Source: Nonomuraea jiangxiensis
GTDB lineage: Bacteria; Actinomycetota; Actinomycetes; Streptosporangiales; Streptosporangiaceae
Length of the DNA stretch: 64,000 nucleotides
Reading direction: 5' to 3'
Assembly: GCF_900099965.1 (NCBI RefSeq)
Contig: NZ_FNDJ01000019.1
Coordinates: 124,001-188,000, forward strand
Part shown: positions 9,107-49,501 of the stretch, piece after piece
Layout of the letters: each line of letters starts with the position of its first letter
Numbering within the stretch: the stretch's first letter is position 1
Translations under genes and position numbers: made by a program
The notes under the pieces: model-generated
What the model was told of the DNA's origin: nothing
Databases searched by the model: none
The model's input: only the letters and a program-made list of their open reading frames with translations

Positions 9107-9177
9107 GGTGGGGTCCACGGTGGAGCCATTCCCGCCGCATCGCGTCCTCAAGCCGCTGCCGGCACTTTGACATCGCC

Positions 9178-9244: not shown

Positions 9245-9774
9245 ACCTTGCGCCGTATGTCGATCACCTCCGACGCGAACTCGCCATCGCCGCCGGGGCG
9301 GGCGGTGAGGAGGCTCGCGCGCTGGCCGAGCGGCTCGCCGCGACGCTTGAGGCGGCCACCCGGCTCGCAATGCTGGAGGCCCTGTCGGCCGCCGCCGACG
9401 AGATCACCCAGGACCTCGCCCCGGGCTCGGTCGAGGTGCGCCTGCGCGGACGCGATCCCGACTTCGTCGTGACGCGACCGCCGAGCAGCCGATCGCTGGA
9501 AGAGGAGGAGATCGAGGTCGGGCGGGCCGAGCGGCCGCCCGTCCCGCCCCCTTCGCCGGACGCCGACGAGGGCGGGACGTCCCGGATCTCGCTCCGCGTC
9601 CCCGAGCACCTCAAGCCGCGCATCGAGGAGGCGGCCGCCCGGGACGGGCTGTCGACCAACGCCTGGCTCGTCCGCGTCGTCTCCGCCGCGCTCGATCCCG
9701 GCGACGCGGGCCGCCGCCCCGGCCGCGGCGAGCCCCGGCAGACCGGCAACCGCTACAGCGGCTGGGTGCGCTGA
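9241..9774 (+). CDS. Ribbon-helix-helix (Arc/HicB-like) regulator
   Basis: A 177-residue protein. The N-terminal ~85 residues are helical and unrecognised, then an acidic/proline linker, then a ribbon-helix-helix module at ~119-153: SRISLRVPEHLKPRIEEAAA followed by GLSTNAWLVRVVSAAL. The strand-helix-helix pattern matches CopG/Arc/HicB DNA-binding folds. The ATG lies inside a tandem-repeat operator, consistent with autorepression. Its stop overlaps the next start (TGATG), so it is the first gene of the DUF4097-DrrAB-DUF1707 operon and probably its regulator. Confidence 0.7.
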   Translation: MDLAPYVDHLRRELAIAAGAGGEEARALAERLAATLEAATRLAMLEALSAAADEITQDLAPGSVEVRLRGRDPDFVVTRPPSSRSLEEEEIEVGRAERPPVPPPSPDADEGGTSRISLRVPEHLKPRIEEAAARDGLSTNAWLVRVVSAALDPGDAGRRPGRGEPRQTGNRYSGWVR

Positions 9775-10712: not shown

Positions 10713-10729
10713 CAACCAAGGAGATCCCC

Positions 10730-14294: not shown

Positions 14295-14307
14295 GCCACC
14301 GGCCGGG

Positions 14308-15627: not shown

Positions 15628-15665
15628 ACGTTCTCACCTTCTAGGTAGGGGGCGCGCCCGTGTTG

Positions 15666-16202
15666 TCACGCCGGGTGCGCGAGCTCGGCGAGCAAGCGGT
15701 CGTGCCAGGTCAGCTCCGTCTCCAGCCGCATCAGGGTGTAGTCGAAGGCGACGGCCTCCAGCCTGGTCAGGTGCGGCTCGGCCTCGACGCGCAGATTGCG
15801 CCAGAAGCCGACCTGCGTGGCGTAGGAGTCGCGCCGCCGCTGGACGGCCGTGCGCAGCTCGTCGGGGCCGATCTCGCCGCCGTGCAGGAGCACCAGCTGG
15901 ATCGGGTCCGGCCGGAGCTTCGTGTCGGCGAGAACCGACCTGATCAGCGAGACCAGCTCGGCGCGGCCCTTGTCGGTGATGCCGTACACCGTGCGGGCGG
16001 GGAGGTTGCCCTCCTGCTCCGTGCGAACCACCTCGACCACGCCTTCGTCCGCCATCCGGCGCAGCGCGCCGTACAACGATCCGGGCTTGACGTCCGCCCA
16101 CAGCTCGACCCGGTCCATCTGGGCGGCGGCCCGCATCTTGTGGCCGTGCATGGGGCCGCCATCCGCCAGAGCGCCGAGGATGAAAAGACGAGTTGCTCGC
16201 AT
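15666..16202 (-). CDS. PadR-family transcriptional regulator
   Basis: A 178-residue protein. The winged helix (~1-85) has LFILGALADGGPMHGHKM, VKPGSLYGALRRMADEGVV and RTVYGITDKGRAEL; the C-terminal ~90 residues are the helical dimerisation domain. ATG 16202 (MRATRLF) matches the family; an in-frame ATG 36 bases upstream would add 12 residues but would run through the tandem GAGTACTC sites. PadR proteins repress nearby efflux or detoxification genes until bound by a ligand. Likely target is the FAD monooxygenase and its own promoter. Confidence 0.88.
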   Translation of the reverse strand: MRATRLFILGALADGGPMHGHKMRAAAQMDRVELWADVKPGSLYGALRRMADEGVVEVVRTEQEGNLPARTVYGITDKGRAELVSLIRSVLADTKLRPDPIQLVLLHGGEIGPDELRTAVQRRRDSYATQVGFWRNLRVEAEPHLTRLEAVAFDYTLMRLETELTWHDRLLAELAHPA

Positions 16203-16204
16203 AT

Positions 16205-16226
16205 GAGTACTCAAACACGAGTACTC
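16205..16226. promoter_or_regulatory. Tandem GAGTACTC palindromes, candidate PadR operator
   Basis: Two identical 8-bp palindromes (16205-16212 and 16219-16226), 14 bp centre to centre, immediately upstream of the PadR start. The spacing suits two dimers on nearby DNA faces. Operator function is inferred. Confidence 0.6.
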
Positions 16227-16260
16227 CTGCTCGCGCAAGGCGAACCTTTTATCCGGCTAC

Positions 16261-16298
16261 TTGACATGGGAGCGCAAGTACTTGCTATTGTCCGTCAA
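16261..16298 (+). promoter_or_regulatory. Leaderless promoter with GCAAGTACTTGC operator
   Basis: TTGACA (16261-16266), a 19-bp spacer and TATTGT (16286-16291) end seven bases before the GTG at 16299, placing the transcript start at or next to the start codon. A perfect 12-bp palindrome GCAAGTACTTGC (16274-16285) fills the spacer, where a bound repressor would block RNA polymerase. Confidence 0.55.
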
Positions 16299-16772
16299 GT
16301 GACGACCACGAAAGACCACGTCGAGTTGGTGGCCGAGCTGGTCCGGTTGCTGGAGACACGGATCCTCGACCCGCTGGAGATCCTGCTGGCCTCAGACGAG
16401 CACGTGGACCCGATCAGGGCACGGCTGCGCGTGGAGGCCGAGGTGTGGGCCGCCCAGCTGCTCGGCCCCGACCGGGAGCGGGCCACCCACACCGCGGCCC
16501 GGCTCGTCGGGGCGTTGTTCCCCGGCGACGGGCCCTTCGACCCGCCCGAGCCGTGGTGGCGTACGGCGCTGGGACGGGCCGTGGCCCGCACCTCCGGCCA
16601 CCCCTCGGCGGCCGCCGTGTCGTACTCCACGGCGGGCGCGATGCTCGGCATCACCCGGCAGGGTGTCCACGACCTGGTCAAGCGCGGCAAGCTCGACAAG
16701 CATCCCGAGGGCGGCGTCACCACCTCCTCCATCCGCGACCGGCTCAACCGACCTCAGGAGAGCACCCCGTGA
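16299..16772 (+). CDS. Helix-turn-helix DNA-binding protein of unknown role
   Basis: A 157-residue protein not matched to a named family. The first ~105 residues are helical and charged. The C-terminal ~45 residues read like an excisionase/MerR-type helix-turn-helix (YSTAGAMLGITRQGVHDLVK, then HPEGGVTTSSIRDRL), a small domain used to read or bend DNA. GTG 16299 is chosen because a promoter ends seven bases upstream, giving a leaderless mRNA. Its stop overlaps the start of the hydrolase gene, so it probably controls that operon, perhaps through the GCAAGTACTTGC palindrome in its own promoter. Confidence 0.6.
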   Translation: MTTTKDHVELVAELVRLLETRILDPLEILLASDEHVDPIRARLRVEAEVWAAQLLGPDRERATHTAARLVGALFPGDGPFDPPEPWWRTALGRAVARTSGHPSAAAVSYSTAGAMLGITRQGVHDLVKRGKLDKHPEGGVTTSSIRDRLNRPQESTP

Positions 16773-17656
16773 CACCACATGACGCGATCATCGAGAACCG
16801 TCCGGTCCACCTGGCCGTGCGCGACCACGGCGGCGACGGCGCCCCCGTGCTGCTGCTCCACGGGCTGGGCGGCACCCTGCTGCACTGGGACGCGGTCGCG
16901 CCGCTGCTGACCGGCTCGCACCGGGTGCTCGCCATGGACCTGCGCGGCCACGGGCTGTCCGGCGACGGGCCGTGGGAGTGGGAGGCGGTCCTGGACGACG
17001 TGCAGGCGGTCGTCGACCACTTCGGCCTGGACGCTCCCCTGGTCGTCGGCCACTCCCTCGGCGGCATGATCGCGATCCTCTGGGCGCTCCGCCACCCGGA
17101 CGGCCCCGGGATCGTCAACCTCGACGGCCTGCGCTCGTCCGAGACCGCCCCGCGGCACTACGCCGGCGTCGAGGAAGAGGAGCTGACCGCGCTCCTCGCG
17201 GAGCTGAAGGCCGTCTTCGACGCCCAGGCCGCGGCGATGGCGCAGCCGCTGCCCGAGACCCACGCCGCGATGTTCCCCCAGCGGGCGCTGCGCACCACGG
17301 ACGCGGGCGCCTACGTGCGGCCGGACGCCGCCCTGGCCGCCCAGATCCGGTACGACCCGCACTTCCAGGACAGCGTGCCCGCTTTGGCCGGCATCCGCTG
17401 TCCCGCCCTGTTCGTCCTGGCCACCGAGAACCTGCCGGGCCTGCCGGGGCGCGTCGGCGAGCTCATGCCGGCGCTGCGCGCGGGAATCCGCCGTGACCTG
17501 CTGCCCCTGGTCGAAAACCGGCCGCATCTGCGCGTGCTCGAACTGGCCGCCAGCCACAACATGGTCGCCGAGCAGCCCGAGCAGATCGCCCAGGCGGTGC
17601 TGGGACTCCGGAGGGAGTCCACGGGGCCCGGCGTCACGGCGAGCCAGGGGGCCTGA
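16769..17656 (+). CDS. Alpha/beta-fold hydrolase
   Basis: A 295-residue cytoplasmic hydrolase. Oxyanion loop LLLHGLGGTLLHWD (~28-41), nucleophile elbow VVGHSLGGM with Ser96, and a late ASHNMV His near ~270 give a plausible Ser-His-acid triad. The family covers esterases, haloperoxidase-like and C-C hydrolases, so the substrate cannot be named. GTG 16769 overlaps the upstream stop (GTGA), forming a two-gene operon with the helix-turn-helix protein. Confidence 0.85.
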   Translation: MTPHDAIIENRPVHLAVRDHGGDGAPVLLLHGLGGTLLHWDAVAPLLTGSHRVLAMDLRGHGLSGDGPWEWEAVLDDVQAVVDHFGLDAPLVVGHSLGGMIAILWALRHPDGPGIVNLDGLRSSETAPRHYAGVEEEELTALLAELKAVFDAQAAAMAQPLPETHAAMFPQRALRTTDAGAYVRPDAALAAQIRYDPHFQDSVPALAGIRCPALFVLATENLPGLPGRVGELMPALRAGIRRDLLPLVENRPHLRVLELAASHNMVAEQPEQIAQAVLGLRRESTGPGVTASQGA

Positions 17657-35276: not shown

Positions 35277-37535
35277 TCAGTCTCGCAGGCCTGGCACGTC
35301 GATGACGATCACCTCGGTGTCGTCGGCCCGCCCCGCGATCCGCCCGTCGTTGCCGGGGAAGTTGTTGTCGTTGGCCACGACGACCTGGTCACCCCGGATC
35401 GGCAGCACCGACTCGACCGACTGCAGCGGGAACGAGAACAGCGGCCCGACCCCGTACTCACCCTGACGGGCCGGCGTGGAGACGCCCTTGGGGTCGGCGA
35501 CGCGCATCAGGTCCACCGCGGTACGGCGCGGCAGGACGCCGTCCTTCGAGGCGGCGTCCAGGTCGGTCACGACCAGCCGCTTGATCCGCGTCTTCGGGCC
35601 CATCTCGTTGTCCCGCTCGATCAACAGCAGCCGCCGGCCGTCCAGCACCGCCGCGTCCCCGACGAACAGACCGGGATCGTCCACCCGGAACGTCCACGTA
35701 CGCCCGGTGTACCTACCGGCCCGCACGTCGAACTCGTAGACCACGCGCCGGCGCTGGTCGGCGTCGTCGGTCCTGGCGCCCTCCAGGATCGGGTACAGGG
35801 TCCAGCCGTTCTCGCTCACCGCCATGGCCTCGAAGCCGCGGCTGGCGGGCAGGTTCGGGCTCTCCCCCGGCGCCAGGTCGGGCGACTGCGGCGACTTCGT
35901 GCCGTCCGGCAGCGGGATCGGCGCCTGCAGCACCTTGCCGGTGCGGTCGGTCCGCAGCAGGTACGGCCCGAACTCCTCGCCGATCCACAGGTCGCCGCGG
36001 GCGTCCCTGGCCAGCGACTCGATGTCGAAGTCGGCCCCGGTCAGCAGCCGGTCGGAGGTGTCCTGGTTGACGATCGGGAAGGGCACCTTGTGGTCAGGGT
36101 CGCGGAAACTGATGTGGCCGCGTACGCGGATCTTGTGGTCACGGTAGTCCGGCTCGATGAAGTAGGCCCGCAGCAGGAAGTCGGCCGAGTTGTTCTTCGC
36201 GCCGAACCCGTTGTCCGGCATGGCGAGCAGCCGGTCGGCGGAGCGGGAGCGCGCGTCGGCCGGGATGACCGCCGAGAAGCCGGGGATCGGCTGGCCGGGG
36301 AACGGCGGGGTGATGCCGTTGACGGTGTCCGGCGGGAGCTGCTTGCCCGACTCCGGGCCGGGCTGGTAGGCGGTCGCCGGCAGCAGGGCGCGGCCGGTCA
36401 GGCGGGCCTCGTCGGGCAGCCGGACGCTCAGCGCGTACATGCGGGTGATCTGCGTCGCGCCGTTGTTGTCGTCGGAGAGGAGGTACAGCGTGTGGCGGTC
36501 GCCGGGCAGCCGGTCGCCGAGCGCCATGGCCTCGATGTTGTCCAGCAGGGGGTTCGGCTGGGGCTGCTTGCTGGACGCCCCGGACGGCGGGCAGTCGGCG
36601 ATGTCGGCCAGCAGCTGCTTGCCGAGCCAGCCACGCGGGTCGGTGACGGTGGTCAGCGAGTCGACGCCGGAGACGTCGGGCACGCCGGTCGCGGACACCC
36701 GGAACACGCGTACGGTGTTGCCCACCCCGGCGGTGAAGCCGCGCTCCAGGGACAGGAACTGGTCACCGCCGAGCGCCACCAGCTCGACCAGGCCGAGCCC
36801 GGGGTCGGTGCGGTAGGCGTACTGGGCCGCCGGCCGGTAGGCGCCGCCCGGCCTGCCCTCGTACCGCAGGATGCGCTGCAGGCCCCGGTTCTCGGCGTCG
36901 CGGCCGTCGGCGGACAGCGGGCCCTCCATGCCGGCGTACAGGGTACGGCCGTCGGGGGTGGCGGCCAGCGACTCGAACGTCTGGTTGGTCGTGGCCTGGC
37001 CGGCGGGGGCGACCCGGAACCGCTCCGGCACCTCGAACTCGGCGGTCTGCCGGCCGTCGGAGAGCCGGAACCGCCGGATCGACGGCTCGGTCTCGGAGCT
37101 GGCCAGCACCGTACGGCCGCCCTGCTCGGCGACGAGCCCCTCGCCGTCGAAGTCCGCGCCCGTGTACGGGACGCCGTCGGGCCGCCGCAACGTGGTCATG
37201 CCGCGTACTTCCGCGGAGAAGGGCTTGCGCCGGCCTTCGGTGAGGGCGAGGTCGTAGAGGCGGGCCGGGGTGGTGCCGAGATTGTCCACGAGCGCGAGCG
37301 CCCGCGACGGCCGGGTCACGGCCAGCGCGGACAACCCGCCGACGGCCGTGCCCTCGAACGTGGTCTTGTCCAGGCTGTCGGTGAAGCCGAGCAGGGACGC
37401 GTCGGCCGAGCAGCGGCCGCCGGACTCGGGTGCGGGACGGGTGGACGCCTCCGCGGCGGGAACGACGCTGATCAGGACGCTGAGCATGACGGTGGCGGCC
37501 GTGATGGCCTGGCCGGGCCGCCGGGTGCTGCGCAC
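35277..37535 (-). CDS. Secreted double-domain phytase/esterase-like protein
   Basis: A 752-residue exported protein. After a signal peptide (cleavage near AEASTRP), two copies of the esterase-like-of-phytase (PF13449-type) propeller appear: domain one ~45-370 (FEGTAVGGLSALAV, FDGEGLVAEQGGRTVLASSE, LLDNIEAMALGDRLPGDRHT) and domain two ~385-750 (IPGFSAVIPADARS, ADFDIESLARDARGDLWIGE, SRGFEAMAVSENGWTLYPIL). Both carry the EG/E-rich loops of the family. Calcium-dependent phosphoesterase action is plausible but unproven. GTG 37535 follows AGGAGG by five bases. Divergent from FxsB across an 86-bp dyad. Confidence 0.82.
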   Translation of the reverse strand: MRSTRRPGQAITAATVMLSVLISVVPAAEASTRPAPESGGRCSADASLLGFTDSLDKTTFEGTAVGGLSALAVTRPSRALALVDNLGTTPARLYDLALTEGRRKPFSAEVRGMTTLRRPDGVPYTGADFDGEGLVAEQGGRTVLASSETEPSIRRFRLSDGRQTAEFEVPERFRVAPAGQATTNQTFESLAATPDGRTLYAGMEGPLSADGRDAENRGLQRILRYEGRPGGAYRPAAQYAYRTDPGLGLVELVALGGDQFLSLERGFTAGVGNTVRVFRVSATGVPDVSGVDSLTTVTDPRGWLGKQLLADIADCPPSGASSKQPQPNPLLDNIEAMALGDRLPGDRHTLYLLSDDNNGATQITRMYALSVRLPDEARLTGRALLPATAYQPGPESGKQLPPDTVNGITPPFPGQPIPGFSAVIPADARSRSADRLLAMPDNGFGAKNNSADFLLRAYFIEPDYRDHKIRVRGHISFRDPDHKVPFPIVNQDTSDRLLTGADFDIESLARDARGDLWIGEEFGPYLLRTDRTGKVLQAPIPLPDGTKSPQSPDLAPGESPNLPASRGFEAMAVSENGWTLYPILEGARTDDADQRRRVVYEFDVRAGRYTGRTWTFRVDDPGLFVGDAAVLDGRRLLLIERDNEMGPKTRIKRLVVTDLDAASKDGVLPRRTAVDLMRVADPKGVSTPARQGEYGVGPLFSFPLQSVESVLPIRGDQVVVANDNNFPGNDGRIAGRADDTEVIVIDVPGLRD

Positions 37536-37595
37536 GGGTACCTCCTGGAAGGGTCGATGCGGGGTGCGTACCCCGCTCCGGGGATGATCGAAGTC

Positions 37596-37681
37596 CCCGC
37601 GGCCCGCCTGCGGCGGACCAGACAGGGAACAACTCATGAAGAGCTGTTGTCCGCCTGGTGAGCGGGCAGGCGGGCCGCGGG
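37596..37681. repeat. 86-bp dyad element between divergent genes
   Basis: CCCGCGGCCCGCCTG (37596-37610) and its exact complement (37667-37681) enclose an inner imperfect palindrome (37618-37635 against 37641-37658, 13 of 18 pairs) with nearly the same centre. The element fills the 211-bp gap before fxsB. It may be a regulatory dyad or hairpin serving either divergent gene. Confidence 0.6.
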
Positions 37682-37746
37682 CTCTCCTCAACGATGAACC
37701 GCTGGGTTAACATCGGAGTCGCTGAGCGAGGCGGGGTGGGGCCGGC

Positions 37747-38961
37747 TTGGTTCATTTCACGGGAGATCCGGCACGGGAGTGGCCGGAGACCCTCGACGTG
37801 GCGGCGATGCTGGCAGGCGGCTGGCGCCCTCAACCCTTCCGCCAGTTCCTGCTCAAGGTGCACAGCCGGTGCAACCTGGCCTGCGACTACTGCTACGTCT
37901 ACACCCTGGCCGACCAGAGCTGGCGCTCGCGGCCCATGGCCATGACGCCCGAGCTCGTCGCCACGGCCGCCCGGCGCATCGCCGAGCACGCGCACCACCA
38001 CGGCCTCGACTACGTCCGGATCATCCTGCACGGCGGCGAGCCGCTGCTGGCCGGGCACGACTACCTGGGCAAGATCGTGGAGATCGTCCGGTCGGAGACG
38101 GGCGACCACCCTCGGGTGGAGGCGTCGGTGCAGACCAACGCGGTCCTGCTGACCGAGCCGGCCCTGCGCTCCTTCGCGGAGCTGGACGTGAAGGTGGGGG
38201 TCAGCCTCGACGGCAACCGGCGGGCCAACGACCGCAACCGGCGCTACGCCGACGGGCGCGGCAGCTACGACGCGGTGGCCGCGGCGCTGGAGTTGCTGAT
38301 GAGCCCGGCCTACCGCGCGTTGTACGGCGGGCTGCTCTGCACGATCGACCTGTCCAACGACCCGCTGGAGACCTACGAGGCGCTGGTCGCGTTCGAGCCG
38401 CCGGTGATCGACTTCCTGCTGCCCCACGCGACCTGGGACTCCCCGCCGCCGGGCCGGCCCGGCGACCAGAGCGAGCCGCTGTACGGCCGGTGGCTCACGA
38501 AGATCTTCGACCTCTGGTACGACACGGCGGACGCGCCCGTCGTACGGATCTTCCAGGAGATCGTCCAGCTCCTGCTGGGCGGCGCCTCCAGGAGCGAGGC
38601 CGTGGGGCTGACGCCGACCAGCCTGATCGTGATCGAGACGGACGGCACGATCGAGCAGACCGACTCGCTCAAGGCGGTGGGCCACGGCGCCCCGGCCACC
38701 GGCCTCAACCTCGCCGAGCACTCCCTCGACGCCGCCCTCCGCCACCCGGGGATCGTGGCCAGGCAGCTCGGCTGGGACGCGCTCAGTGACACGTGCAAGG
38801 GCTGCCGGTTCAGCCGCGTCTGCGGCGCGGGGCTCTATCCGCACCGCTATCGCGCCGGCACCGGATTCCTGAACCCGTCGGTCTATTGTGCGGACCTCTA
38901 CTGGTTGATCGAGCACATCAGGGCACGCCTGGTCTCGGACCTGCGCCGGTCCTCCGTCTGA
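37747..38961 (+). CDS. fxsB: FxsB-type radical SAM/SPASM cyclophane-forming maturase
   Basis: A 404-residue radical SAM enzyme. The 4Fe-4S motif is CNLACDYCY (Cys42, 46, 49), preceded by the FxsB mark FRQFLLKVHSR; the SAM-binding ILHGGEPLLAG follows. The C-terminal SPASM-type cysteines are C350, C353, C359 and C381 (CKGCRFSRVCGAG ... YCADLY). FxsB enzymes cross-link an aromatic side chain to a nearby residue in FxSxx-COOH peptides, giving cyclophane RiPPs. TTG 37747 is the best start although its ribosome site is weak. Its peptide substrate is most likely the 51-residue gene at 42942. Confidence 0.88.
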   Translation: MVHFTGDPAREWPETLDVAAMLAGGWRPQPFRQFLLKVHSRCNLACDYCYVYTLADQSWRSRPMAMTPELVATAARRIAEHAHHHGLDYVRIILHGGEPLLAGHDYLGKIVEIVRSETGDHPRVEASVQTNAVLLTEPALRSFAELDVKVGVSLDGNRRANDRNRRYADGRGSYDAVAAALELLMSPAYRALYGGLLCTIDLSNDPLETYEALVAFEPPVIDFLLPHATWDSPPPGRPGDQSEPLYGRWLTKIFDLWYDTADAPVVRIFQEIVQLLLGGASRSEAVGLTPTSLIVIETDGTIEQTDSLKAVGHGAPATGLNLAEHSLDAALRHPGIVARQLGWDALSDTCKGCRFSRVCGAGLYPHRYRAGTGFLNPSVYCADLYWLIEHIRARLVSDLRRSSV

Positions 38962-38971
38962 AGGGAGCCTC

Positions 38972-40279
38972 ATGGATCTGCGACCGCACCGATTACCGGA
39001 CGACGTGCTGTCGCGGCTGGGAGCCGGCGGCGGCGGGGGCCGGGCGATGCGGGCCCTGACGGCGGCCGAGGAGAGCAAACACCGGCTGCTGGTGTTCGCC
39101 GTGGCCGACCTGGCCCCGTCCGAGCCGGTGCGGCGCGCCTTCGACGTGCTCACGCGCGTCGAGAAGAGCCATCGCGAGGTGGTGCGGGATGTGTTGCGGC
39201 ATCCGGCCGTCGGCGCCTGGGCGAAGCGCACCGTCCACGAGTTGCAGCGCGGACGCGACGGAGGGCCGCGCGGGTCCGCCCAGCTCGGGGCGGTGGCCGC
39301 GGTCGCGGCGGCCAGGGCGGGGGTCGAGTGCCGGATCGAGGTCCCGGCCTGGCGGGGGACGGTCATGCTGCCCTCCCTCGGGCAAATCTCGCTGCGCGAG
39401 CCGGTGTCCGGACCGGTGGAGCTGCGCGTACGCGCCGGTGGAACGGCGGAGGCGGCCGGGCTGAGCTTCACCGCGGCGCCCGCGGTGGTGAACGGGCGCG
39501 GAGACGCGGAGGGCGGGCCGCCGCCTGCGGGGTGGGAGCCGCTGCACCGGATCTCCGTGGCCGGGCCGAGCCTCCTCGTGGACGACCTCGACCCGTTCCG
39601 GTGGGATCCGGCGACCGCCACGGACGACCGCCTGGCTCCGGCCGAGCTGCGCCACTGGCGCGACTGCCACGCCGCCGCCTGGGACCTCCTGACCGCCCAT
39701 CACTGGACGATCGCCGAGGAGGTCGCCGCGGCCGTCTCGGTGCTCACCCCCATCAAGGGGCCCGAGCACGGGCAGAACAGCGCCTCGGCCCGCGACAGGT
39801 TCGGCACGGTCGCCATGTCCACCCCGCCCGACGGGCGCTGGCTCGCCTCCACGTACGCGCACGAGGTCCAGCACGCCAAGCTCGGCGCCGTCCTGGACGT
39901 CGTCGAGCTCGTACGCCCCGACGCCAGGCGCTACTACGCTCCTTGGCGCGACGACCCCCGCCCCCTGCCGGGCCTGTTGCAGGGCGCCTACGCCTACCTG
40001 GGCGTGGCCGGCTTCTGGCGGCGGCAACGCGAGTACGACCCGGACCGCAGGCCGCACATCGAGTTCGCCCGCTGGCGGCGCTCGGCCTTCGAGGTGACCG
40101 GGACGCTGCTGGCCAGCGGTGCGCTCACCGGGCCCGGGGAGGAGTTCGTGACGCGGATGCGGGGCACGCTGTCGGCCTGGCAGGACGAGCCGGTGCCGGC
40201 CTCCCTGCGGGCCGCCGCCCGGGAGGAGGCCGACGCGCATCATCGGGCCTGGGTGGCCAGGAACGGCCTCACAGGGTGA
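38972..40279 (+). CDS. HExxH-type (alpha-ketoglutarate) peptide beta-hydroxylase
   Basis: A 435-residue protein whose only strong motif is the metal site YAHEVQHAKLGAVLDVVEL (His297, Glu298, His301) in the C-terminal half, matching the HExxH proteins found beside FxsB genes and annotated as alpha-ketoglutarate-dependent peptide beta-hydroxylases. The N-terminal ~150 residues include helical LTAAEESKHRLLVFAVADL. AAGGGAG precedes ATG 38972, ten bases after fxsB, so the two are co-transcribed. It likely hydroxylates the same precursor. The gene ends overlapping fxsT by 11 bases in convergent orientation. Confidence 0.78.
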   Translation: MDLRPHRLPDDVLSRLGAGGGGGRAMRALTAAEESKHRLLVFAVADLAPSEPVRRAFDVLTRVEKSHREVVRDVLRHPAVGAWAKRTVHELQRGRDGGPRGSAQLGAVAAVAAARAGVECRIEVPAWRGTVMLPSLGQISLREPVSGPVELRVRAGGTAEAAGLSFTAAPAVVNGRGDAEGGPPPAGWEPLHRISVAGPSLLVDDLDPFRWDPATATDDRLAPAELRHWRDCHAAAWDLLTAHHWTIAEEVAAAVSVLTPIKGPEHGQNSASARDRFGTVAMSTPPDGRWLASTYAHEVQHAKLGAVLDVVELVRPDARRYYAPWRDDPRPLPGLLQGAYAYLGVAGFWRRQREYDPDRRPHIEFARWRRSAFEVTGTLLASGALTGPGEEFVTRMRGTLSAWQDEPVPASLRAAAREEADAHHRAWVARNGLTG

Positions 40280-42803
40280 GCGGGTCGAAGTCCCAGTCGA
40301 TCCGCCGGTCCGCCTCGACCCGAACCCGGTCGGGGTGGTCGTGCCGGAATGTGGCGAACAGCGCCCTGGTGCGCGCGTGCAGCTCCTTGGCCTGCTCCAG
40401 GGCGCCGGTGGCCCGCAGGTCGTGCGCCAGGTTGTTGCCCGCCGAGAGCGCGAGCACGTGTCGCTCGGTGAAGTGGACCCGCACCTGCTCGTAGGTGCGC
40501 TCGCCCAGCCGGCGGGCCTCGGTGAACTCGCCCAGGGCCGCGAGGTCGCCTGCCAGGTTGACGGCGGCGGCGAAGGTGAGCTCGTGGCGCTCGCCCAGCT
40601 TGTCGCACAGCCACTCGTAGGTGTCGATGTCCCGGCGGCGCGCTTCGGCGGCGTCTCCGCGCAGCCGGTAGAGCAGGGCCAGGTTGATCTCGCACCCGTA
40701 CAGGAAGGGGTGCTGCTTGCCGAAGGCCGCGCGGTATCGCGGCAGCACCTCGCTGGTGAGCGCGAACGCCCGGTCCAGGTCGCCCATCTCACGCACGGTG
40801 TTGGCCAGGGCGATGGTGGCGGCCATGGTCTCGGGGTTGTGCGGGCCGTAGAACTTCTCCAGCCGTGCCAGCGTCTCCTCCGCCAGCTCCAGCGACTCGG
40901 CCAGATCGCCGTGCCGCCGCTTGGCGATGGACAGGTCTCTCGCCGTCATGAGCGTGAGGATGTGCTCGACCTCCAGCTCCTTGCGGCCGTAGGAGTAGGC
41001 CTCCTCCCCGAGGTCGACGGCCTCGGCGTAGTCGCCGCAGAGGCGCACGATCCGGGCCAGGCCGTTCCATGAGATCTGGACGTCCCACTTCCCGACGCCT
41101 TCGCTGGCGTTGCTCTGCTCCAGGAAGGCCAGCCGCTGCTTGACGCGGGCCTTGTCGTATTCGCTCAGCAGGGCATGGTCGAGCGCCAGGTTGTTGATCA
41201 CGCGGATGGTGGCCGGGTGGTCGTCGCCGAACAGCTCGGTGTGCGCCTCCAGCAGCGCGGTGTCGCGCTCGAAGGCGCCCCTGAAGTCGCCGAGGCCGCG
41301 CAGGTTGGCGGCGTAGTTGAGGCCGACGCGCAGGGTCTCCTCGTGGCGCTCCCCGAAGTCGGGATGGGCCTGCATCAGCTCCAGCGTGCGCCTGTTGAGC
41401 CTGCGGGACTCGGCGTATTCGCCGAGCTGCCACAGCACGGTGCCCAGGTGCCGCTGCAGGCGCACGACGTGCCGGTCCTCCTGCCCGGAGTCCTCGATCC
41501 AGGTCGTGAGGAACTCCTCGGCGAACGTCCGCGCCGAGGCGAGCGTGCCCTGCCGGTAGAGGTATCTGACGATGTTGATGGCGAACTCGCGTACCTGCGG
41601 GTCGTGGCTCCTGGCCAGTCCGGAGGGGCGTACGTGCGGGACGAGATCGCTGTAGGCGCGCCACTTGGTGTTGTCCTCGGGGTCGGGCGGCGCGGCGCTG
41701 GCCATCAGCCGGTGGACCTCGTTCTTGACGGCCTGGCGGCCGGCAGGGTCGAGCGAGTCGCGCAGCAGCGCCTGCACCAGCCGGTGGACCTGGACGGTGC
41801 GCACCTCCTGCTCGACCTTGATGAGGGCGAACCGGCCCAGGGCCGCGAACGCCTGGTTGAGCATGACGGGGTCGGCCAGGATCGACTGCATCATGTCGGC
41901 GCTGCCCTTGCTGCCACGGCGGAAGACGTCGCGGGGGATCGGGTTGGGCCCGAAGAAGGCCAGGCACCGCAGCACGTCGCCGGCCTCGGGCAGCTTGCCC
42001 TCGACCGCCTCCACGGACAGCTGCCAGGCCGCCGTCATCGACACCGGGTATTCGGTCGACTTCCCCATCGACAGCAGGTCCCTGGTGCGTACGTCGAGTT
42101 GTTCGATGTACTCCTCGACGGAGATGCCCGTCTGGTCCTGCAGGGCGGCCGCCTGCTCCAGCGCCAGCGGCAGGTCACCGAGCGCCTCGGCCAGGCGGTC
42201 GGCCTCCTTCTTGTCGACCTCGCGGCCCAGGCGCCTGTTGAGGAAGGCGATGCTCTCCTGACGGGCGAAGACGTCGACCTGCACGGTCTGAGCCACCGCG
42301 CTCCACCGGTTGTTGCGCGAGGTGATGAGGACGTGCCCGGGACCCCCGTCGGGGATCATGTCCCTGATCTGCTCGGGCTCGTCGGCGTTGTCGAAGATCA
42401 GTAACCACCGGTCGTAGGGCTCGCCCCGTTGCAACGCCTCGCGTACGGAGGCGGCGGCCTCCTCGATGCCGACCACGGTCGCCGGCCGCAGACCGAGCCC
42501 CTCGGCGAGCCCGGCCAGGGAGCTCGGCACAAGTTCGGCCTGATCGGCAGTGATCCACCACACGATGTCGTATTTGTCACGATATTGCCAGGCATATTGG
42601 ATGGCGAGCTGGGTCTTGCCCACGCCACCGAGGCCGTGCAGGGCCTGGGGCACCAGTGCGGCGCTCGTGCCCGTCGTGAGGCTCTCGCGCAGCCGGGCGA
42701 GAATCTCGCTGCGGCCGGTGAAGTTCTTGTTCTGGCCTGGGATGCGCTTGCCCCAGATGGCGGGCAGACGCGCCGCCGGCCGTGAGGTGATCCGCTCGTC
42801 CAC
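40269..42803 (-). CDS. fxsT: FxsT: NB-ARC/TPR STAND protein of the FxSxx-COOH system
   Basis: An 844-residue STAND NTPase. After the mark NKNFTGRSEILARLRE the Walker A is HGLGGVGKTQLAIQYA (57-64 core), Walker B RWLLIFDNADEPEQI near 135, and GLPLAL-like LGDLPLALEQAAALQ follows. From ~400 onward come many TPRs (ALLEAHTELFGDDHPATIRV; ETMAATIALANTVREMGDL). The arrangement matches proteins named FxSxx-COOH system tetratricopeptide proteins. NB-ARC proteins switch on by oligomerising after ligand binding; which ligand is unknown, but a modified peptide is attractive. GTG 42803 follows GAGGAGG. Divergent from the precursor gene. Confidence 0.88.
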   Translation of the reverse strand: MDERITSRPAARLPAIWGKRIPGQNKNFTGRSEILARLRESLTTGTSAALVPQALHGLGGVGKTQLAIQYAWQYRDKYDIVWWITADQAELVPSSLAGLAEGLGLRPATVVGIEEAAASVREALQRGEPYDRWLLIFDNADEPEQIRDMIPDGGPGHVLITSRNNRWSAVAQTVQVDVFARQESIAFLNRRLGREVDKKEADRLAEALGDLPLALEQAAALQDQTGISVEEYIEQLDVRTRDLLSMGKSTEYPVSMTAAWQLSVEAVEGKLPEAGDVLRCLAFFGPNPIPRDVFRRGSKGSADMMQSILADPVMLNQAFAALGRFALIKVEQEVRTVQVHRLVQALLRDSLDPAGRQAVKNEVHRLMASAAPPDPEDNTKWRAYSDLVPHVRPSGLARSHDPQVREFAINIVRYLYRQGTLASARTFAEEFLTTWIEDSGQEDRHVVRLQRHLGTVLWQLGEYAESRRLNRRTLELMQAHPDFGERHEETLRVGLNYAANLRGLGDFRGAFERDTALLEAHTELFGDDHPATIRVINNLALDHALLSEYDKARVKQRLAFLEQSNASEGVGKWDVQISWNGLARIVRLCGDYAEAVDLGEEAYSYGRKELEVEHILTLMTARDLSIAKRRHGDLAESLELAEETLARLEKFYGPHNPETMAATIALANTVREMGDLDRAFALTSEVLPRYRAAFGKQHPFLYGCEINLALLYRLRGDAAEARRRDIDTYEWLCDKLGERHELTFAAAVNLAGDLAALGEFTEARRLGERTYEQVRVHFTERHVLALSAGNNLAHDLRATGALEQAKELHARTRALFATFRHDHPDRVRVEADRRIDWDFDPLTL

Positions 42804-42910
42804 GCCGCCCTCCTCGGTGTTATTTCCGATCCTACGATTGCTTCCGTGCCCGCGTCGTCACAGAATCACATGGAAGAAAGCCGTCACGGGAATGCCTGCG
42901 ATCAATGATG

Positions 42911-42929
42911 ATTACGGCACGGCCGTAAT
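42911..42929. promoter_or_regulatory. 8-bp inverted repeat ATTACGGC-ACG-GCCGTAAT upstream of the precursor peptide
   Basis: A perfect inverted repeat ending 12 bases before the ATG of the precursor gene and directly before its GGGAGTGAG ribosome site, in the gap divergent from fxsT. It may be an operator or a leader hairpin controlling the peptide. Confidence 0.55.
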
Positions 42930-42941
42930 AGGGAGTGAGCG

Positions 42942-43097
42942 ATGGACGACGACAACGCGACCGGCCTCATCGATCTCAGCACGATCGACCTGGACGACCT
43001 CCGTTTCCAGGAGAGACACGCGCTCAGGAGGGCATGGACCCGGCTCGCCGAGGACGCCGACGGCGCGGTGGCGGGATTTCAGTCGGCGGCGGTTTAG
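42942..43097 (+). CDS. fxsA: FxSxx-COOH-type RiPP precursor peptide (51 residues)
   Basis: A small acidic protein with leader-like LIDLSTIDLDDLRFQERHAL and a C-terminal core ending AGFQSAAV. The FxS tripeptide at the extreme end, preceded by a DLDDL-rich leader, is the hallmark of FxSxx-COOH peptides that FxsB cross-links. Here three residues follow the serine instead of the usual two, a small deviation. ATG 42942 has GGGAGTGAG upstream and an inverted repeat before that. It sits between fxsT (divergent) and the nSTAND1 gene (same strand). The Phe-Gln-Ser core is the likely cyclophane site; this is inference. Confidence 0.78.
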   Translation: MDDDNATGLIDLSTIDLDDLRFQERHALRRAWTRLAEDADGAVAGFQSAAV

Positions 43098-43228
43098 CCG
43101 TTCGCTTTCGCCGGCCGAAATTCTTGTCGTGCGCGGAAAGCGAAACTGCAATCAAAATGCAATGAACGTCCTCTAGCCTGAAAGTCTGAGGTTCGTCCTC
43201 GCTTTTTTCGTCGGAGACAGGACGGGTG

Positions 43229-45148
43229 ATGACCGCCAACGGCAGCGACCTGAAGCCCTACGCCGGCCCGCACCCGTTCACGCGCGAGGACGGTGTGCGG
43301 TTCTTCGGCCGAGATCAGGAGGCGTCCGACCTGGCCCGGCGCTGGCGCCGCGACCGGCTGACGATCCTGCACGGGCCTTCAGGGGTCGGCAAGACCTCGC
43401 TGCTGTCCGCCGGCGTGCTGCCGCGGCTCCATCCGACCGCCGCCGACGTGCTCCCGGTCGGCGGTGTCCTGCGCTCCTCGCTGGTGCCGGCCGCGATCGT
43501 CCCGGCCGGCGGCGACGCGCAGGTCTTCGCCCTGCTGGCGTCCTGGGCGCCGTTCGAGTCGCCGGTGGAGTTCACCGGCCAGGCGATCTCCGCCTTTCTC
43601 CGGCGCCGCAAACCCCGCCGCGCCCCCTCGGGCGAGGTGCTGCCCGTCCTCGCCGCCGTCGATCACCTCGACGACCTGTTCACGGGGAGCCTGACCGATC
43701 CCGTGTCGTTCCTCGACCAGCTCGCCGAGGCCCTCGACGCGGAGCCGAGACTGCGGCTGCTGCTGGTGATCAGCGACGAGCACCTCGGCTCGCTCACCCG
43801 CCACCCGGGGCTGCGCCGCCACCTCGGGGACGGGACCTACCGGCTGGAGCCGCTCGGCGCCGAGCCGGCGCTCGACGCGTGCCGCCGCCCGGTGGAGGAC
43901 CTGGGCTGGGCCTTCGCCCCGGGGGTGGCCGAGGCGCTGGTCGACGACCTGCGGCAGGTGCCAGGCGGCCTCCTTCCCGCCGTGGAGCCCGTTCACCTGC
44001 AGGTCGTGTGCACCGCGTTGTGGCAGGGCGTCCGGGCGGAGCCGCGCCGGATCACCCTCGACGACCTGCCCGCCGTGGACAAGGTGCTGGCCGAGTTCGG
44101 CCACTTCATGATCGACGAGGTCGCCCACGACCACTTCCACGGCGACGCCGACGAGCTCACCGACCTGGTGCGCCGGCTGGCCGGTGGCGACACGGACGCC
44201 GGCGCGGCCCTGCCTGACCGCGTGGTCATGGCGCTCGTCGACCGCCACGTGCTGTGCGGGGCCGGCGCCGCGCGCCGCATCGAGATCCGTCCCCGGCTCG
44301 TCCGGCCCCTGACACTCGGCCGCCGCTCCGCCAAGCGCGAGGACCAGCACACCGACTCCGCCTACCACCTGGAGGCCGCCGAGCGCGCCCTGCACGAGGG
44401 GCACCTCGACCTCGCGCTCAAGCACGCCGACGGGGCCGTCCAGCGCTCCGCCACCGACCCCGGCCAGGGACACGCCGACCTCCTGCGCCCGCGCATCGAG
44501 TCCTTGCGCGCCGACATCGCCCACGTCTCCGGCGACCAGGACACGGCGATCGACCACTACCGCCGGGCCATCCAGCTCTACACCACGCTTCGCGGCACCG
44601 ACCACCTCGTCGCCACGCTCTACACCGCGATCGGCCGCATCCTGATCCGCCAGGGCAGATACCGGGAGGCCGTCAGGGAGTTGCGCGCGGCCCTGCGGCG
44701 TGGCCCCGGCGAACCGGCCATCCACACGGAGCTGGCCTGGGCCCTGTGGTACGGCGGCCAGGAAGGCGTCGCGATCGACGTCCTCAACGACGCGCTCGCG
44801 CTGGAGGGCAGCGCGCCCGAGGCGCTCCGCGCGCGCGGCGAGATCATGTCCGATCTCGAACGCCCCGTGCCCGCCCTGCGTGACCTCGACCGGCTGAGGC
44901 CCTTCGCGCAATCGTCCACCAAGGCCGCCTACGCGCTGGCGCTGGCCCTGTCCGGCGACGTCCCGCACGCCCTGCGGACGATCCCGCCGCTCGACAGCGA
45001 GCGCGACGGCTCCACCCTCCTGCGCGCGGCCCGGGTGATGTGGGCCGCGGGCAACCGCTCCGAGGCCGCCCGCCTGGCCAGACGCGCCCAGCAGGGCTCG
45101 CTGCCGCCGCGGCTCGCCGCCGAGGCCGAGCACCTCATCGGCCGCTGA
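43229..45148 (+). CDS. nSTAND1-type NTPase with C-terminal TPRs
   Basis: A 639-residue protein. The N-terminus YAGPHPFTREDGVRFFGRDQ is the nSTAND1 entry motif; Walker A is LHGPSGVGKTSLLSAGVLPR (~46-65) and Walker B VLAAVDHLDDLF near 145. Residues ~380-639 hold TPR-like helices (DHYRRAIQLYTTLRGTDHLV, IGRILIRQGRYREAVRELRA). It has no transmembrane segment or obvious effector domain such as TIR or protease, so it may sense or regulate rather than kill. ATG 43229 is best supported (AGGA six bases before); a GTG at 43226 is the other option. It lies 131 bases after the peptide gene. Confidence 0.8.
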   Translation: MTANGSDLKPYAGPHPFTREDGVRFFGRDQEASDLARRWRRDRLTILHGPSGVGKTSLLSAGVLPRLHPTAADVLPVGGVLRSSLVPAAIVPAGGDAQVFALLASWAPFESPVEFTGQAISAFLRRRKPRRAPSGEVLPVLAAVDHLDDLFTGSLTDPVSFLDQLAEALDAEPRLRLLLVISDEHLGSLTRHPGLRRHLGDGTYRLEPLGAEPALDACRRPVEDLGWAFAPGVAEALVDDLRQVPGGLLPAVEPVHLQVVCTALWQGVRAEPRRITLDDLPAVDKVLAEFGHFMIDEVAHDHFHGDADELTDLVRRLAGGDTDAGAALPDRVVMALVDRHVLCGAGAARRIEIRPRLVRPLTLGRRSAKREDQHTDSAYHLEAAERALHEGHLDLALKHADGAVQRSATDPGQGHADLLRPRIESLRADIAHVSGDQDTAIDHYRRAIQLYTTLRGTDHLVATLYTAIGRILIRQGRYREAVRELRAALRRGPGEPAIHTELAWALWYGGQEGVAIDVLNDALALEGSAPEALRARGEIMSDLERPVPALRDLDRLRPFAQSSTKAAYALALALSGDVPHALRTIPPLDSERDGSTLLRAARVMWAAGNRSEAARLARRAQQGSLPPRLAAEAEHLIGR

Positions 45149-45307
45149 ACAACCGTGACCTTCCCATGGCCGTCGGCTCTCTCGTCCGCCACCTCACGGA
45201 CCCGGCCCATGCCCTAGTCTCTGACAGTGCTCCGTGCCCCAAGTGCCCGCCACACCAGTCGCGGGACGTCGAGCCGTACGGTCAAGGACCGGGCAGCGGA
45301 AGCCGCC

Positions 45308-46690
45308 ATGGCAGGCACGCGGCAGGTTAGACACGCGTTCACGCTCAGCGCGGCCCACCCGTCCTTCGGGTTCTCGTGGCTGGGCTCGACCCTGTCGATG
45401 CTCGGGACGAGAACCCTCGGCGTGACCTATCCGCTGCTGGCGTTCTGGCTCACGTCCTCCCCCACGTGGACGGCCTGGGTGATGTTCGCCGCCACGGTTC
45501 CCGCGCTGCTGTGCTACATCCCGGCGGGCGCCATCATCGACCGGCTCGGGCGGCGGCGGGTGATGGTGTGGAGCGAGCTCGGGCGGGCCGTGCTCATCGC
45601 GCTGCTGTGCGCCGGGCTGCTGACCGACCGGCTGGACGTGGGCCTGCTGCTGGCCATCGCGTTCCTGGAGGGCGGGCTCGGCGTGTTGTCGTCCGTGGCC
45701 GAGACGGCGCTGATCCCGGCCACCGTGCCCAAGCGCGACGTCGAGACCGCGCTGGCGCTGCACGAGACGACCGTGCACGCGGTGGTGCTCACCGGACGCC
45801 CGCTGGGCGGCCTGCTGTACGGACTGGGCACCCTCGTTCCCTTCGTGGCCAACGCCTTGATGTTCGCCTTCGCGGCCCTCGCGGTGTCCCGGAGCAGCCG
45901 GGGAGAGCGGCCCGCGGAGGACGCCGCGGGTGACGAGGGATACGCGCCGCTCACGGCCGACGAACCGGCGCCGGCGCCGACGTTCCTCCGTGAGATCGGG
46001 GCGGGGCTGCGCGAGGTCAGGGATCACCCCTTCCTGCGCACGGCCACCCTGCTGACCGCGCTGATCAACCTGGCCGTGCAGTCGCTCATCGTGGTGTTCC
46101 TGTCCATGGCGGCCTCGACCGGGCTGCACCCCGCCCTGGTCGGCCTGACGCTGGCCGCCTCGGGGGTGGGCGGCGCGTTCGGCGCGTTCATCTCGCCGGC
46201 CAGGAAACGGATCTCCAAGGGGATCGGCCGCCGCGCGGCCCGGGTGCGGCTGACGTTCCTGGCGGAGTGGTCCGGCCTGTCGCGCAAAGGCCGCTCCATG
46301 CCGCTGGTCCACGTCTGGGCCTGCGCCGTGGGGCTGGGGCTCGTCACCCTCTTCAGCGAGGCCACACTCGCCTTCGCCGTGGCGTTGCTGATCATCGGGC
46401 TGACCGGCGGGCTGAGCAACGTCACCATCAGGACCGTGCTCAGCCGGGTTCCCGAGCACCTCATGGCCAAGGTGGTGAGCGTCACCCGGCTCGGCAGCTA
46501 CAGCTCGGTCGCGCTGGGCCCGCTGGTGGCCAGCGTGCTGGTCGCGTCCGTGCAGGTCAACGGCGCACTCGTGATCATCTTCCTGGTCACCTGCGGGATG
46601 GCGGCGACGGCGACCCTGGTGCCGAAACTCAGGCGGGCGCTCTCCCCCAGGCTGCTGATGTATTCCCGGGTGGACACAGAGCGTGCGTAA
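45308..46690 (+). CDS. Major facilitator superfamily transporter (exporter-like)
   Basis: A 460-residue membrane protein with about 11-12 helices. Motif A is present as GAIIDRLGRRRVMVWSELGR after helix two, typical of drug-type MFS proteins; a longer central loop (~200-240) separates the halves and a second loop (~310-340) is basic. ATG 45308 (MAGTRQV) is chosen by the Kyte-like start of the first helix and GGAAG upstream. Its place between two NTPase genes of the FxSxx locus makes export of the peptide product a possibility. Substrate unknown. Confidence 0.82.
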   Translation: MAGTRQVRHAFTLSAAHPSFGFSWLGSTLSMLGTRTLGVTYPLLAFWLTSSPTWTAWVMFAATVPALLCYIPAGAIIDRLGRRRVMVWSELGRAVLIALLCAGLLTDRLDVGLLLAIAFLEGGLGVLSSVAETALIPATVPKRDVETALALHETTVHAVVLTGRPLGGLLYGLGTLVPFVANALMFAFAALAVSRSSRGERPAEDAAGDEGYAPLTADEPAPAPTFLREIGAGLREVRDHPFLRTATLLTALINLAVQSLIVVFLSMAASTGLHPALVGLTLAASGVGGAFGAFISPARKRISKGIGRRAARVRLTFLAEWSGLSRKGRSMPLVHVWACAVGLGLVTLFSEATLAFAVALLIIGLTGGLSNVTIRTVLSRVPEHLMAKVVSVTRLGSYSSVALGPLVASVLVASVQVNGALVIIFLVTCGMAATATLVPKLRRALSPRLLMYSRVDTERA

Positions 46691-46717: not shown

Positions 46718-49501
46718 ATGCCGCTCCGCCGATTACCGCATCTCCTCGCCGTCCTGGCCGTCGTCGCGGGAGTGTTCGTCCCGTTCGCCCGGCCGGCGAG
46801 CGCCCGGGCCGTCCTGGCCGCGCCCCAGTTCATGGAGCAGACTCCGCTGTCCATCCCGCTCGACCGGGTCGGCGGGACCAGCGTGTGGCGGATCGGCATC
46901 GTCAATCCCGGCCCGGCGACCTCGGCAGAGGTGCGTGTCGCCGGCGCCGTCGGGCAGACCCTGACCGTCCGGGGCGCCGCCAGGCTGCGACTGGCCGCGG
47001 GCGGGACGGCGTGGGTGGACCTGGTGCCCGGCCCCCGGCCGCGCGCGGGCACCGGCCAGCTCCTGCTGATCTCGCCGGCGGGCATCGACCGGCGCCAGGT
47101 GAGCGTGACCCTGCCCTTCCTGCGGCGCCACCTCGGCTGGGTCGTCGCCGGCGGCGTCGCCGCCGTGGCCGCGCTGGTCTGCGGGGCGCTGTACTGGGGG
47201 CGGAGGCGGGCCCGGCGCAGGGCCCGCGAGGAGATCCTGGACGACCGGCCGGCACCCAGCACGGACGAGTTCACCCATACCGACGAGCCCACGGAGAACG
47301 ACCGGCTCAACCGCAGCGAATACGCCAGCGGTCTGGCCCACCTGGCCGCCTCCGCCACCCCGCCGCTCGTCATCGGCGTGTTCGGCGAGTGGGGCACGGG
47401 CAAGACGTCGATGCTCAGGCAGATCAGGAAACTCATCGACGGCTACGAGCACTGCGCCCACGTCTGGTTCGACCCATGGAGGCACCAGTACGACGCCAAC
47501 CCCGTGCTGCCCCTGCTCCACACCATCGTGACCGGCCTGGGGCTGGAGCGGACGGAGGGCCTGCGGCAGAAACTCGGCGTCATCTCGGAGGTGCTCGGCT
47601 CCCTCGTCCTCACGTCCGCGCTCAAGATCTCGGTGGCGGACGTGCGCAAGTCGTTCGAGGTCTACGACGAGCAGAACTTCCGCGTACGCTCCGAGCACGC
47701 GCGCCTCGACGGCCACCTCCGCACGCTGATCGCCAGGGCGCTGGAGGCACGGCAGAAGAGCCGGCTCATCGTGTTCATCGACGATCTCGACCGCTGCCAC
47801 GCCGACCAGATCGTGGCCCTGCTGGAGACGCTCAAGCTGCACTTCAACCGCGACAACTGCGTCTTCTTCCTGGGCGTGGCGAAGGCGCCGCTGGACGCGG
47901 CGGTGAAGCAGCGTTACCAGGACCAGCCGGTCGGCGACTATCTCGACAAGATCGTCCAGTTCCCCTTCGAGATGCCGCGGCTGTCCGACGAGGCCTTCCG
48001 GTCATATGTGGACGAGTTGCTGAAGGAGAACCTCCGGCAGGCCGGCGACCTGCTGAAGCTCGGGCTGAGGCCCAACCCGCGCACGGTCAAGCGCTTCATC
48101 AACGTGCTCATCCTGCAGGACAAGGTGGCCCAGGACCGCGGCCTCGAACACTACGACGTCGCGATCCTGGCGGCCGTCCTGCTGATCCGTGACGGCGACC
48201 CCGAGTTCTACGGCCGGCTCGCGCACGACCCGACGCTGCTGGGGAGGATCGTGGAGGATCTCGACACCGCCGCCGAGGACCAGCCGCTCGCGTGGAGCCC
48301 GCTGGCGCTCAAGCTCGTCCAGGGCTTCCCCGGCGGCCGGGAGCGGATCCCCGGCAACGTCAGCCCGTACATCGACCTGGTGCGGTCGTCCCCGGTCGTC
48401 CAGCAGAGCGACACGGTCGCGGAGGAGAGCCAGGCCGCGGACGCCTCCGGTGTGGCGGCCCTCGGCCTGTCCGCGCCACGGGTGGATTTCGCCCCGCTCA
48501 AGGAGCGCGTCCAGCGGTACGTGAGCACGGCGGCGGGCGCCGAGGAGGACCTGCTCGACCCCCTGGTCCGCTTCTCCCGCGACGGCGAGCGGGTGACGGT
48601 CACCCCCGAGGAGCTCCTGGCCAGGGAGGGCACCGGCCTGTACGTCTTCGGCGAGCCGGGCAGCGGCAAGAGCGTACTGGCCGTCCGGCTCACCCGCCGC
48701 CTCCTCGCCAGGACCGACGTGGTCCCGGTCTTCCTGCGGATGGCCGCCTTCCAGACCGAGCAGCCCGACCTCGAACTGCGGCTGACCCATGCGATCCGCC
48801 GCGAGTACCAGATGTCACTGGTGGAGATCTATCCCCTGGTCCAGAGCAGGTCGCTCGTCTACGTGCTCGACGAGCTGCACGAGCTGGACAGCGCCGCGCA
48901 GGCGGCGCGGCTGCTGGAGGACGTCGCCCGCTACGGCGCCCTGACGGGCGTCCGCTTCGTCGTCACGGACCGGGGCGGGACGTCGCGCGAGTCCGTGTCG
49001 GCGCGGCTCGGCCTGGAGACGATGGAGGTCCTCGGCGTGGCGGAGGAGGACGGCCGGCGCCGCCTGGAGAGGCTGCTCGCCGACCGGCACGTCCCGGTCG
49101 AGCGGCTGGGCGCCCTGCCGTCCGCGCTGCTGACCTCCCCCGGCTTCTTGTCGGTGCTCGCGGCCCGGCCCGGGTGGATCGACGACCTGCCCGGCACGCG
49201 CGTGGACTTCCTGCCCTGGTACGCCGACCGCGCGACGGCCGGTCTCGAGGTCGCGGCCGTCGAGCGGGAGCGGGTCGTGCGGGCGTTGCGGGAACTGGCC
49301 GTCCATGGCGAGGAGGAGGACTCGACGGGCTTCTCCAGCGAGGACGCCGGCGTCCGGGAGATCTTCCGCGACTGCGGCATCGTCGGCATGCAGGTGCCCG
49401 AGGCGCTCAGGGCCATGGTGGACGCGGGGGTGCTGTACGCGGCCGGTCCGCACGCCTTCCAGTTCGCGCATCCGCTGCTCCGGGACCACCTCGCCAGGTG
49501 A
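46718..49501 (+). CDS. Membrane-anchored KAP-NACHT double NTPase with extracytoplasmic domain
   Basis: A 927-residue single-pass protein. Signal peptide ~1-30 (cleavage near ASARA), an extracytoplasmic beta-sandwich ~31-136, a transmembrane helix ~137-157 followed by RRRARRRAR, then cytoplasm. The KAP NTPase has Walker A VFGEWGTGKTSMLRQI (~222-237), IVFIDDLDRCHADQI near 350 and PRTVKRFINVLILQD near 457. A second, NACHT-like NTPase follows with Walker A VFGEPGSGKSVLAVRL (~643-658) and SLVYVLDELHEL near 715. No effector domain beyond these is visible. AGG lies before ATG 46718, 27 bases after the transporter gene. Confidence 0.85.
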   Translation: MPLRRLPHLLAVLAVVAGVFVPFARPASARAVLAAPQFMEQTPLSIPLDRVGGTSVWRIGIVNPGPATSAEVRVAGAVGQTLTVRGAARLRLAAGGTAWVDLVPGPRPRAGTGQLLLISPAGIDRRQVSVTLPFLRRHLGWVVAGGVAAVAALVCGALYWGRRRARRRAREEILDDRPAPSTDEFTHTDEPTENDRLNRSEYASGLAHLAASATPPLVIGVFGEWGTGKTSMLRQIRKLIDGYEHCAHVWFDPWRHQYDANPVLPLLHTIVTGLGLERTEGLRQKLGVISEVLGSLVLTSALKISVADVRKSFEVYDEQNFRVRSEHARLDGHLRTLIARALEARQKSRLIVFIDDLDRCHADQIVALLETLKLHFNRDNCVFFLGVAKAPLDAAVKQRYQDQPVGDYLDKIVQFPFEMPRLSDEAFRSYVDELLKENLRQAGDLLKLGLRPNPRTVKRFINVLILQDKVAQDRGLEHYDVAILAAVLLIRDGDPEFYGRLAHDPTLLGRIVEDLDTAAEDQPLAWSPLALKLVQGFPGGRERIPGNVSPYIDLVRSSPVVQQSDTVAEESQAADASGVAALGLSAPRVDFAPLKERVQRYVSTAAGAEEDLLDPLVRFSRDGERVTVTPEELLAREGTGLYVFGEPGSGKSVLAVRLTRRLLARTDVVPVFLRMAAFQTEQPDLELRLTHAIRREYQMSLVEIYPLVQSRSLVYVLDELHELDSAAQAARLLEDVARYGALTGVRFVVTDRGGTSRESVSARLGLETMEVLGVAEEDGRRRLERLLADRHVPVERLGALPSALLTSPGFLSVLAARPGWIDDLPGTRVDFLPWYADRATAGLEVAAVERERVVRALRELAVHGEEEDSTGFSSEDAGVREIFRDCGIVGMQVPEALRAMVDAGVLYAAGPHAFQFAHPLLRDHLAR

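Follow-up and report, generated by a model that had tools for sequence, protein, structure and literature searches.

A probable FxSxx-type cyclophane RiPP cluster with a diverged precursor and a conserved gene order in Nonomuraea jiangxiensis

We analyzed a window of 64,000 nucleotides from the 11.8 Mb genome of Nonomuraea jiangxiensis, and conclude, with a probability of about 0.88, that it carries a complete cyclophane RiPP cluster of the FxSxx (triceptide) type, in which a radical SAM/SPASM protein would cross-link a short precursor and a separate αKG-HExxH enzyme would hydroxylate it. The filing of the locus among the FxSxx cyclophane RiPPs by the original prediction is borne out by the family models of FxsB, the hydroxylase and FxsT, all of which are passed, and by a conserved neighbourhood. 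The cluster adds to the FxSxx/triceptide systems a well-delimited sub-clade that is widespread in the genus, and for which our literature search found no reported product. Two supposed rules, the '-xx-COOH' ending of the precursor and its position next to FxsB, both fail as general rules; in consequence, members escape searches built on either of them or on the cut-off of TIGR04268. Published precedents exist both for Phe-x-Ser cyclophanes (MscB) and for cyclophane peptides hydroxylated by an αKG-HExxH enzyme (ChlBH).

Composition of the locus and gene order

FxsB, the HExxH hydroxylase, FxsT and a 51-residue precursor had been predicted to lie together, and the four genes are found in a single locus (Table 1). 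The precursor, expected some 4 kb from FxsB, is separated from it by about 3,980 bp, and fxsT is indeed transcribed in the opposite direction, sharing 11 bp with the hydroxylase gene.

Table 1. Features of the locus in window positions; the rows marked L053 belong to a second FxsB locus of the same genome (G000:C18:44000-63500)
Feature	Position	Strand	Description
phytase-like esterase gene	35277-37691	opposite to fxsB	just before fxsB; PF13449 399 bits
fxsB	37747-38961	+	404 aa radical SAM/SPASM cyclophane synthase; TTG start
aKG-HExxH-type peptide beta-hydroxylase	38972-40279	+	435 aa, stand-alone
fxsT	40269-42803	-	844 aa NB-ARC/STAND ATPase with tetratricopeptide repeats
divergent intergenic region, fxsT/precursor	42804-42941	.	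138 bp
fxsA-type precursor	42942-43097	+	51 aa; leader ...LIDLSTIDLDDL...; core GFQSAAV-COOH
nSTAND1-TPR protein	43226-45148	+	640 aa; PF20703 114 bits and TPRs
MFS transporter	45227-46690	+	TIGR00900 125 bits, under that model's cut-off
KAP-NTPase/NACHT protein	46718-49501	+	927 aa; PF07693 125 bits
L053 FxsB	8909-10033		
L053 HExxH	10057-11361		
L053 FxsT	14237-16714	-	
L053 precursor	17017-17202	+	

FxsB passes as a radical SAM/SPASM maturase, with 484 bits against TIGR04269 (cut-off 370); it carries the motif CNLACDYC, whose cysteines C42, C46 and C49 are invariant, and it matches the solved homologue ChlB (9gm3) with an E value of 3e-84. Its start codon is uncertain, and the alignment of the relatives begins at about residue 7. 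An FxsB-like gene is present in 50 of 55 genomes of the genus, and a close orthologue, 70-75% identical to the FxsB of the window, in 15 other genomes. The likeness of FxsB to viperin in the PADLOC analysis, a generic radical-SAM match, was dismissed as evidence for a defence system. FxsT reaches 942 bits against NF040586 (cut-off 300) and also matches PF00931 and PF13424; it could be a STAND/TPR partner, regulatory or effector, encoded head-to-head with the precursor, a role that is speculative.

The split layout had been regarded as distinctive, a view that the comparison of loci does not sustain: the same order occurs in all 15 close relatives of the genus and also in related families. In 14 of these 15 orthologous loci (L054-L068) the same four genes follow in the same order, and only L063 lacks the hydroxylase gene; in all 15, fxsT converges on fxsB or on the hydroxylase gene, with the precursor transcribed divergently from fxsT. 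The spacing between fxsT and the precursor is 59-241 bp in the 13 orthologous loci measured, and L058 and L066 show the same orientation. The distance between precursor and fxsB is about 3.9-4.4 kb where the hydroxylase gene is present, and 2.7 kb in L063; the convergent 3' ends are close together in the relatives as well. At lower identity, the same order was observed in Actinomadura hibisca (L078), Microtetraspora (L081), Thermomonospora (L083) and Actinoallomurus (L144), where the precursor is again divergent from fxsT and some 4 kb distant from FxsB. In further Nonomuraea loci (e.g. L033, L069, L071), fxsT, precursor, a STAND gene, fxsB and hydroxylase come in succession; several loci of Streptomyces and Kitasatospora have the precursor just before fxsB. 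From the orders seen across these loci, the layout of the window is unlike the Streptomyces type yet standard in the genus.

The hydroxylase and the predicted chemistry

The hydroxylase scores 158 bits against TIGR04267 (cut-off 40) and carries an intact HEVQH motif at residues 297-301, with H297, E298 and H301 invariant among 11 homologues. It matches the solved homologue 22nu_A (E 3e-39), from a deposit titled radical SAM core domain-containing protein, and, with a weak sequence match, ChlH (8s5f; E 9e-5). Assignment to NF040587, FxsBH with an inactivated hydroxylase extension, was rejected, given a score of 127 bits against 225 and the retention of HEVQH. It is unlikely that this protein is a leader peptidase and no hydroxylase; the HExxH family was formerly annotated as zincin-like metallopeptidase (PMC7159879), and the related enzyme PflC cleaves peptides hydrolytically when the leader is absent (PMC12636437), but the protein falls within TIGR04267, the αKG-HExxH beta-hydroxylase domain, and its homologue ChlH is a hydroxylating enzyme. 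The absence of the hydroxylase gene from the orthologous locus L063 counts against our main reading, and implies that the hydroxylase is not essential to the system.

In the complete-cluster reading that we favour, FxsB would bind the 51-aa precursor through its leader, and the 5'-deoxyadenosyl radical would join the ring of Phe46 to the beta-carbon of Ser48 (F46-Q47-S48) with the loss of 2 H; the separate αKG-HExxH enzyme would then place a beta-hydroxyl on a residue in or near the cyclophane. The C-terminal AAV, which stands where two residues are usual, would be a tail with probably no part in the cross-link. The proposed cross-link, its position and the hydroxylation are drawn from published homologues. 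The InterPro entry of MscB, IPR026335, we take to be FxsB. MscB links C4 of Phe with the beta-carbon of Ser to form a three-residue cyclophane (Nguyen et al. 2020, as reported in PMC11002830); the MscA/MscB triceptide has the same enzyme family and the same F-x-S target as the window, and differs from the predicted product of the window, whose peptide has the tail AAV. According to PMC12636437, an rSAM-fused αKG-HExxH enzyme acts as a hydroxylase on a precursor that already bears its cyclophane, and in ChlBH, a fused rSAM and aKG-HExxH protein, the hydroxylated residues are Asp and His (Morishita et al. 2024, as summarized there). For the window, as in ChlBH, homologous domains are predicted to form a cyclophane and then to carry out beta-hydroxylation; the domains are fused in ChlBH, whereas in the window they are separate proteins.

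Considering the chemistry of MscB, the homologies of the hydroxylase, the invariant HExxH and the lack of fit to NF040587, the best prediction is a -2 Da cyclophane on F46-Q47-S48 with a +16 Da hydroxylation nearby. For the cross-linked and beta-hydroxylated Phe-Gln-Ser product proposed at the outset, the chemistry is backed by the family models, the solved homologues and the conserved neighbourhood; the structure, in contrast, had been expected to be new, and would represent a known type of cross-link in one further sequence variant. With respect to the FxSxx-COOH system (TIGR04268, TIGR04269, NF040586, TIGR04267), the window has the same four components, leader motif and FxS core, and differs in a precursor that falls under the model cut-off and has one residue more after Ser; its hydroxylase is encoded separately, as it is in many related loci.

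Among the loci of the genus, those with F-D-N core precursors (FDNST, FDNSM, FDND; L040, L041, L052, L070) are without an αKG-HExxH gene; L038 was counted with them, but no precursor was found there. These loci may form one clade, and hence reflect one event. In loci with F-Q-S, F-x-Q-S and F-S-N core types the αKG-HExxH gene is mostly present, the exception being L063 (FNSAV).

The precursor and its C-terminal tail

Judged by its sequence, the 51-aa peptide is a diverged relative of FxsA and not a model-confirmed member. Searched against the FxsA models, as had been proposed, it reaches 18 bits (E 0.0025) with TIGR04268, below the cut-off of 28, a result that weighs against the main reading, yet a profile of its relatives recovers it with an E value of 1.5e-16. 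TIGR04268 is marginal for the sub-clade, since close orthologous precursors score around its cut-off (21, 26.4, 27.4, 27.5 and 28.9, and 39 for one FNSAM type). With the profile, built from 20 related precursors and excluding the window peptide, the latter was first of the 282 small ORFs of the window (54 bits), the next having an E value of 0.21, and the best of 5000 shuffled peptides reached 9.3 bits. By tblastn, correspondingly placed precursors of other genomes match with E values down to 9e-15. Identity to the orthologous precursors is 30-58% (the closest being L058, FQSAV, with 58%). A failure to align with any FxSxx precursor would have counted against the original prediction, and both the profile and tblastn align the peptide with related ones. 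The leader motif LIDL/V..L.DL and the FxS core are both present, and a GGGAG ribosome-binding-like sequence precedes the ATG.

The peptide ends F-Q-S-A-A-V, as had been noticed (GGATTTCAGTCGGCGGCGGTTTAG at the site); three residues follow Ser, and F-x-S-x-x is not found at the very C-terminus. The longer core had also been considered distinctive, which does not hold. Near FxsB genes we collected 47 distinct precursors of the F/W-x-S type. The set was obtained with an iterated profile on the fetched loci and is thus biased to seed-like precursors (many distant loci yielded none), and its weakest hits (E up to 1e-3, e.g. L091, L094) may include one due to chance. Of the 47, 31 have two residues after Ser and 16 have more: three in the window, L104 (FTSYLP) and L130 (FDSGVD), and 4-33 in the other 13. 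The L130 precursor lies directly before fxsB, and that of L104 adjoins fxsT, 8 kb from fxsB. F-x-S plus two residues is the rule in the orthologous precursors (14 of 15), with core ends that include FQSAI, FQSVI, FQSAV, FQSAP, FQSAT, FSSAL, FTSVI, FNSAA and FDSAT; the L062 precursor ends FQSFIDRD, with five residues after Ser. There are also F-x-x-S types with tails, and two tailed precursors pass TIGR04268, ...FNQSIDGLAPHG (from the second locus of the source genome) with 34.3 bits and ...FDNSTPPARAEN with 33.4 bits. From the tailed F/W-x-S precursors and these tailed members it follows that '-xx-COOH' is a majority habit and no law; the additional residue at the C-terminus is a minor variation, seen in relatives too.

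The window precursor has one codon more between Ser and the stop than its close relatives, in the run TCGGCGGCGGTT, and this clean 3-base gain in a GCG/GGC stretch looks more like slippage than like a sequencing error. It is quite unlikely that the extra Ala matters, that is, that FxsB tolerates or needs a three-residue tail, or that the register of the cross-link shifts, giving a product different in kind. The window is alone among the 16 loci of the close clade in having exactly three residues after Ser; however, the tail is of variable length in the family (15 further F/W-x-S precursors from FxsB loci have tails of 3-33 residues), F-x-S and the residues ahead of it (VAGFQSA) are unchanged, and the insertion falls within a GCG/GGC-rich stretch where slippage of one codon is easy. 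We regard as very unlikely that the three-residue tail alters the outcome, with a cyclophane position or a further oxidation unlike those of other FxSxx peptides; by analogy, the αKG-HExxH enzyme might then act on the extra Ala, or the tail might be trimmed oxidatively, as PflC/PosC act at the Ala that opens an ARMD motif.

Extremely unlikely, finally, is a substrate of FxsB elsewhere in the genome with the 51-aa ORF uninvolved, for although the ORF matches the curated model only weakly and a second FxsB locus of the same genome has its own precursor ending FNQSIDGLAPHG, an orthologous precursor is present at the same place in 15 of 15 close relatives, the second locus is self-sufficient (own FxsB, hydroxylase, FxsT and precursor), and nothing else among the small ORFs of the window is FxsA-like. 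Other precursors of the source genome were sought at that second locus.

The second locus, L053, is a complete FxsB system whose core is GFNQSIDGLAPHG, F-x-x-S with a tail. Elsewhere, two FxsA-like precursors several kb apart were observed within one locus (L101, at 3575-3922 and 9556-9969; L115; L129).

Neighbouring genes

In none of the fetched relatives was the phytase-like esterase gene found next to fxsB, and for this reason it probably marks the cluster's left boundary. On the other side, the nSTAND1-TPR gene occurs in 12 of the 15 orthologous loci, the MFS gene in 13, and the KAP/NACHT gene in at least 8, some of the loci ending before the KAP position. PADLOC called no defence system for the cluster itself; the QatA/PDC-S20/PifA likeness that it reported for the KAP-NTPase/NACHT protein (below cut-off for QatA) was dismissed as evidence for one.

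FxSxx peptide-processing systems with AP-ATPase-TPR proteins have been described, and a peptide toxin or signal was suggested for them (Burroughs et al. 2020, PMC7159879). The window has the same small FxSxx protein, zincin-like HExxH protein, radical SAM/SPASM protein and AP-ATPase with TPRs; it differs in that the annotated neighbours include no vWA or MoxR gene, and nSTAND1-TPR, MFS and KAP NTPase genes are found instead. Any role of the STAND and KAP proteins, like the biological function of the cluster, is a matter of speculation. Our best candidate for an exporter, by inference, is the MFS protein. In the genus, an nSTAND1-TPR gene is located near fxsA in both main gene orders, which suggests a second STAND partner beside FxsT. 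The conserved MFS, STAND-TPR and KAP neighbours represent testable candidates for the export and function of FxSxx peptides.
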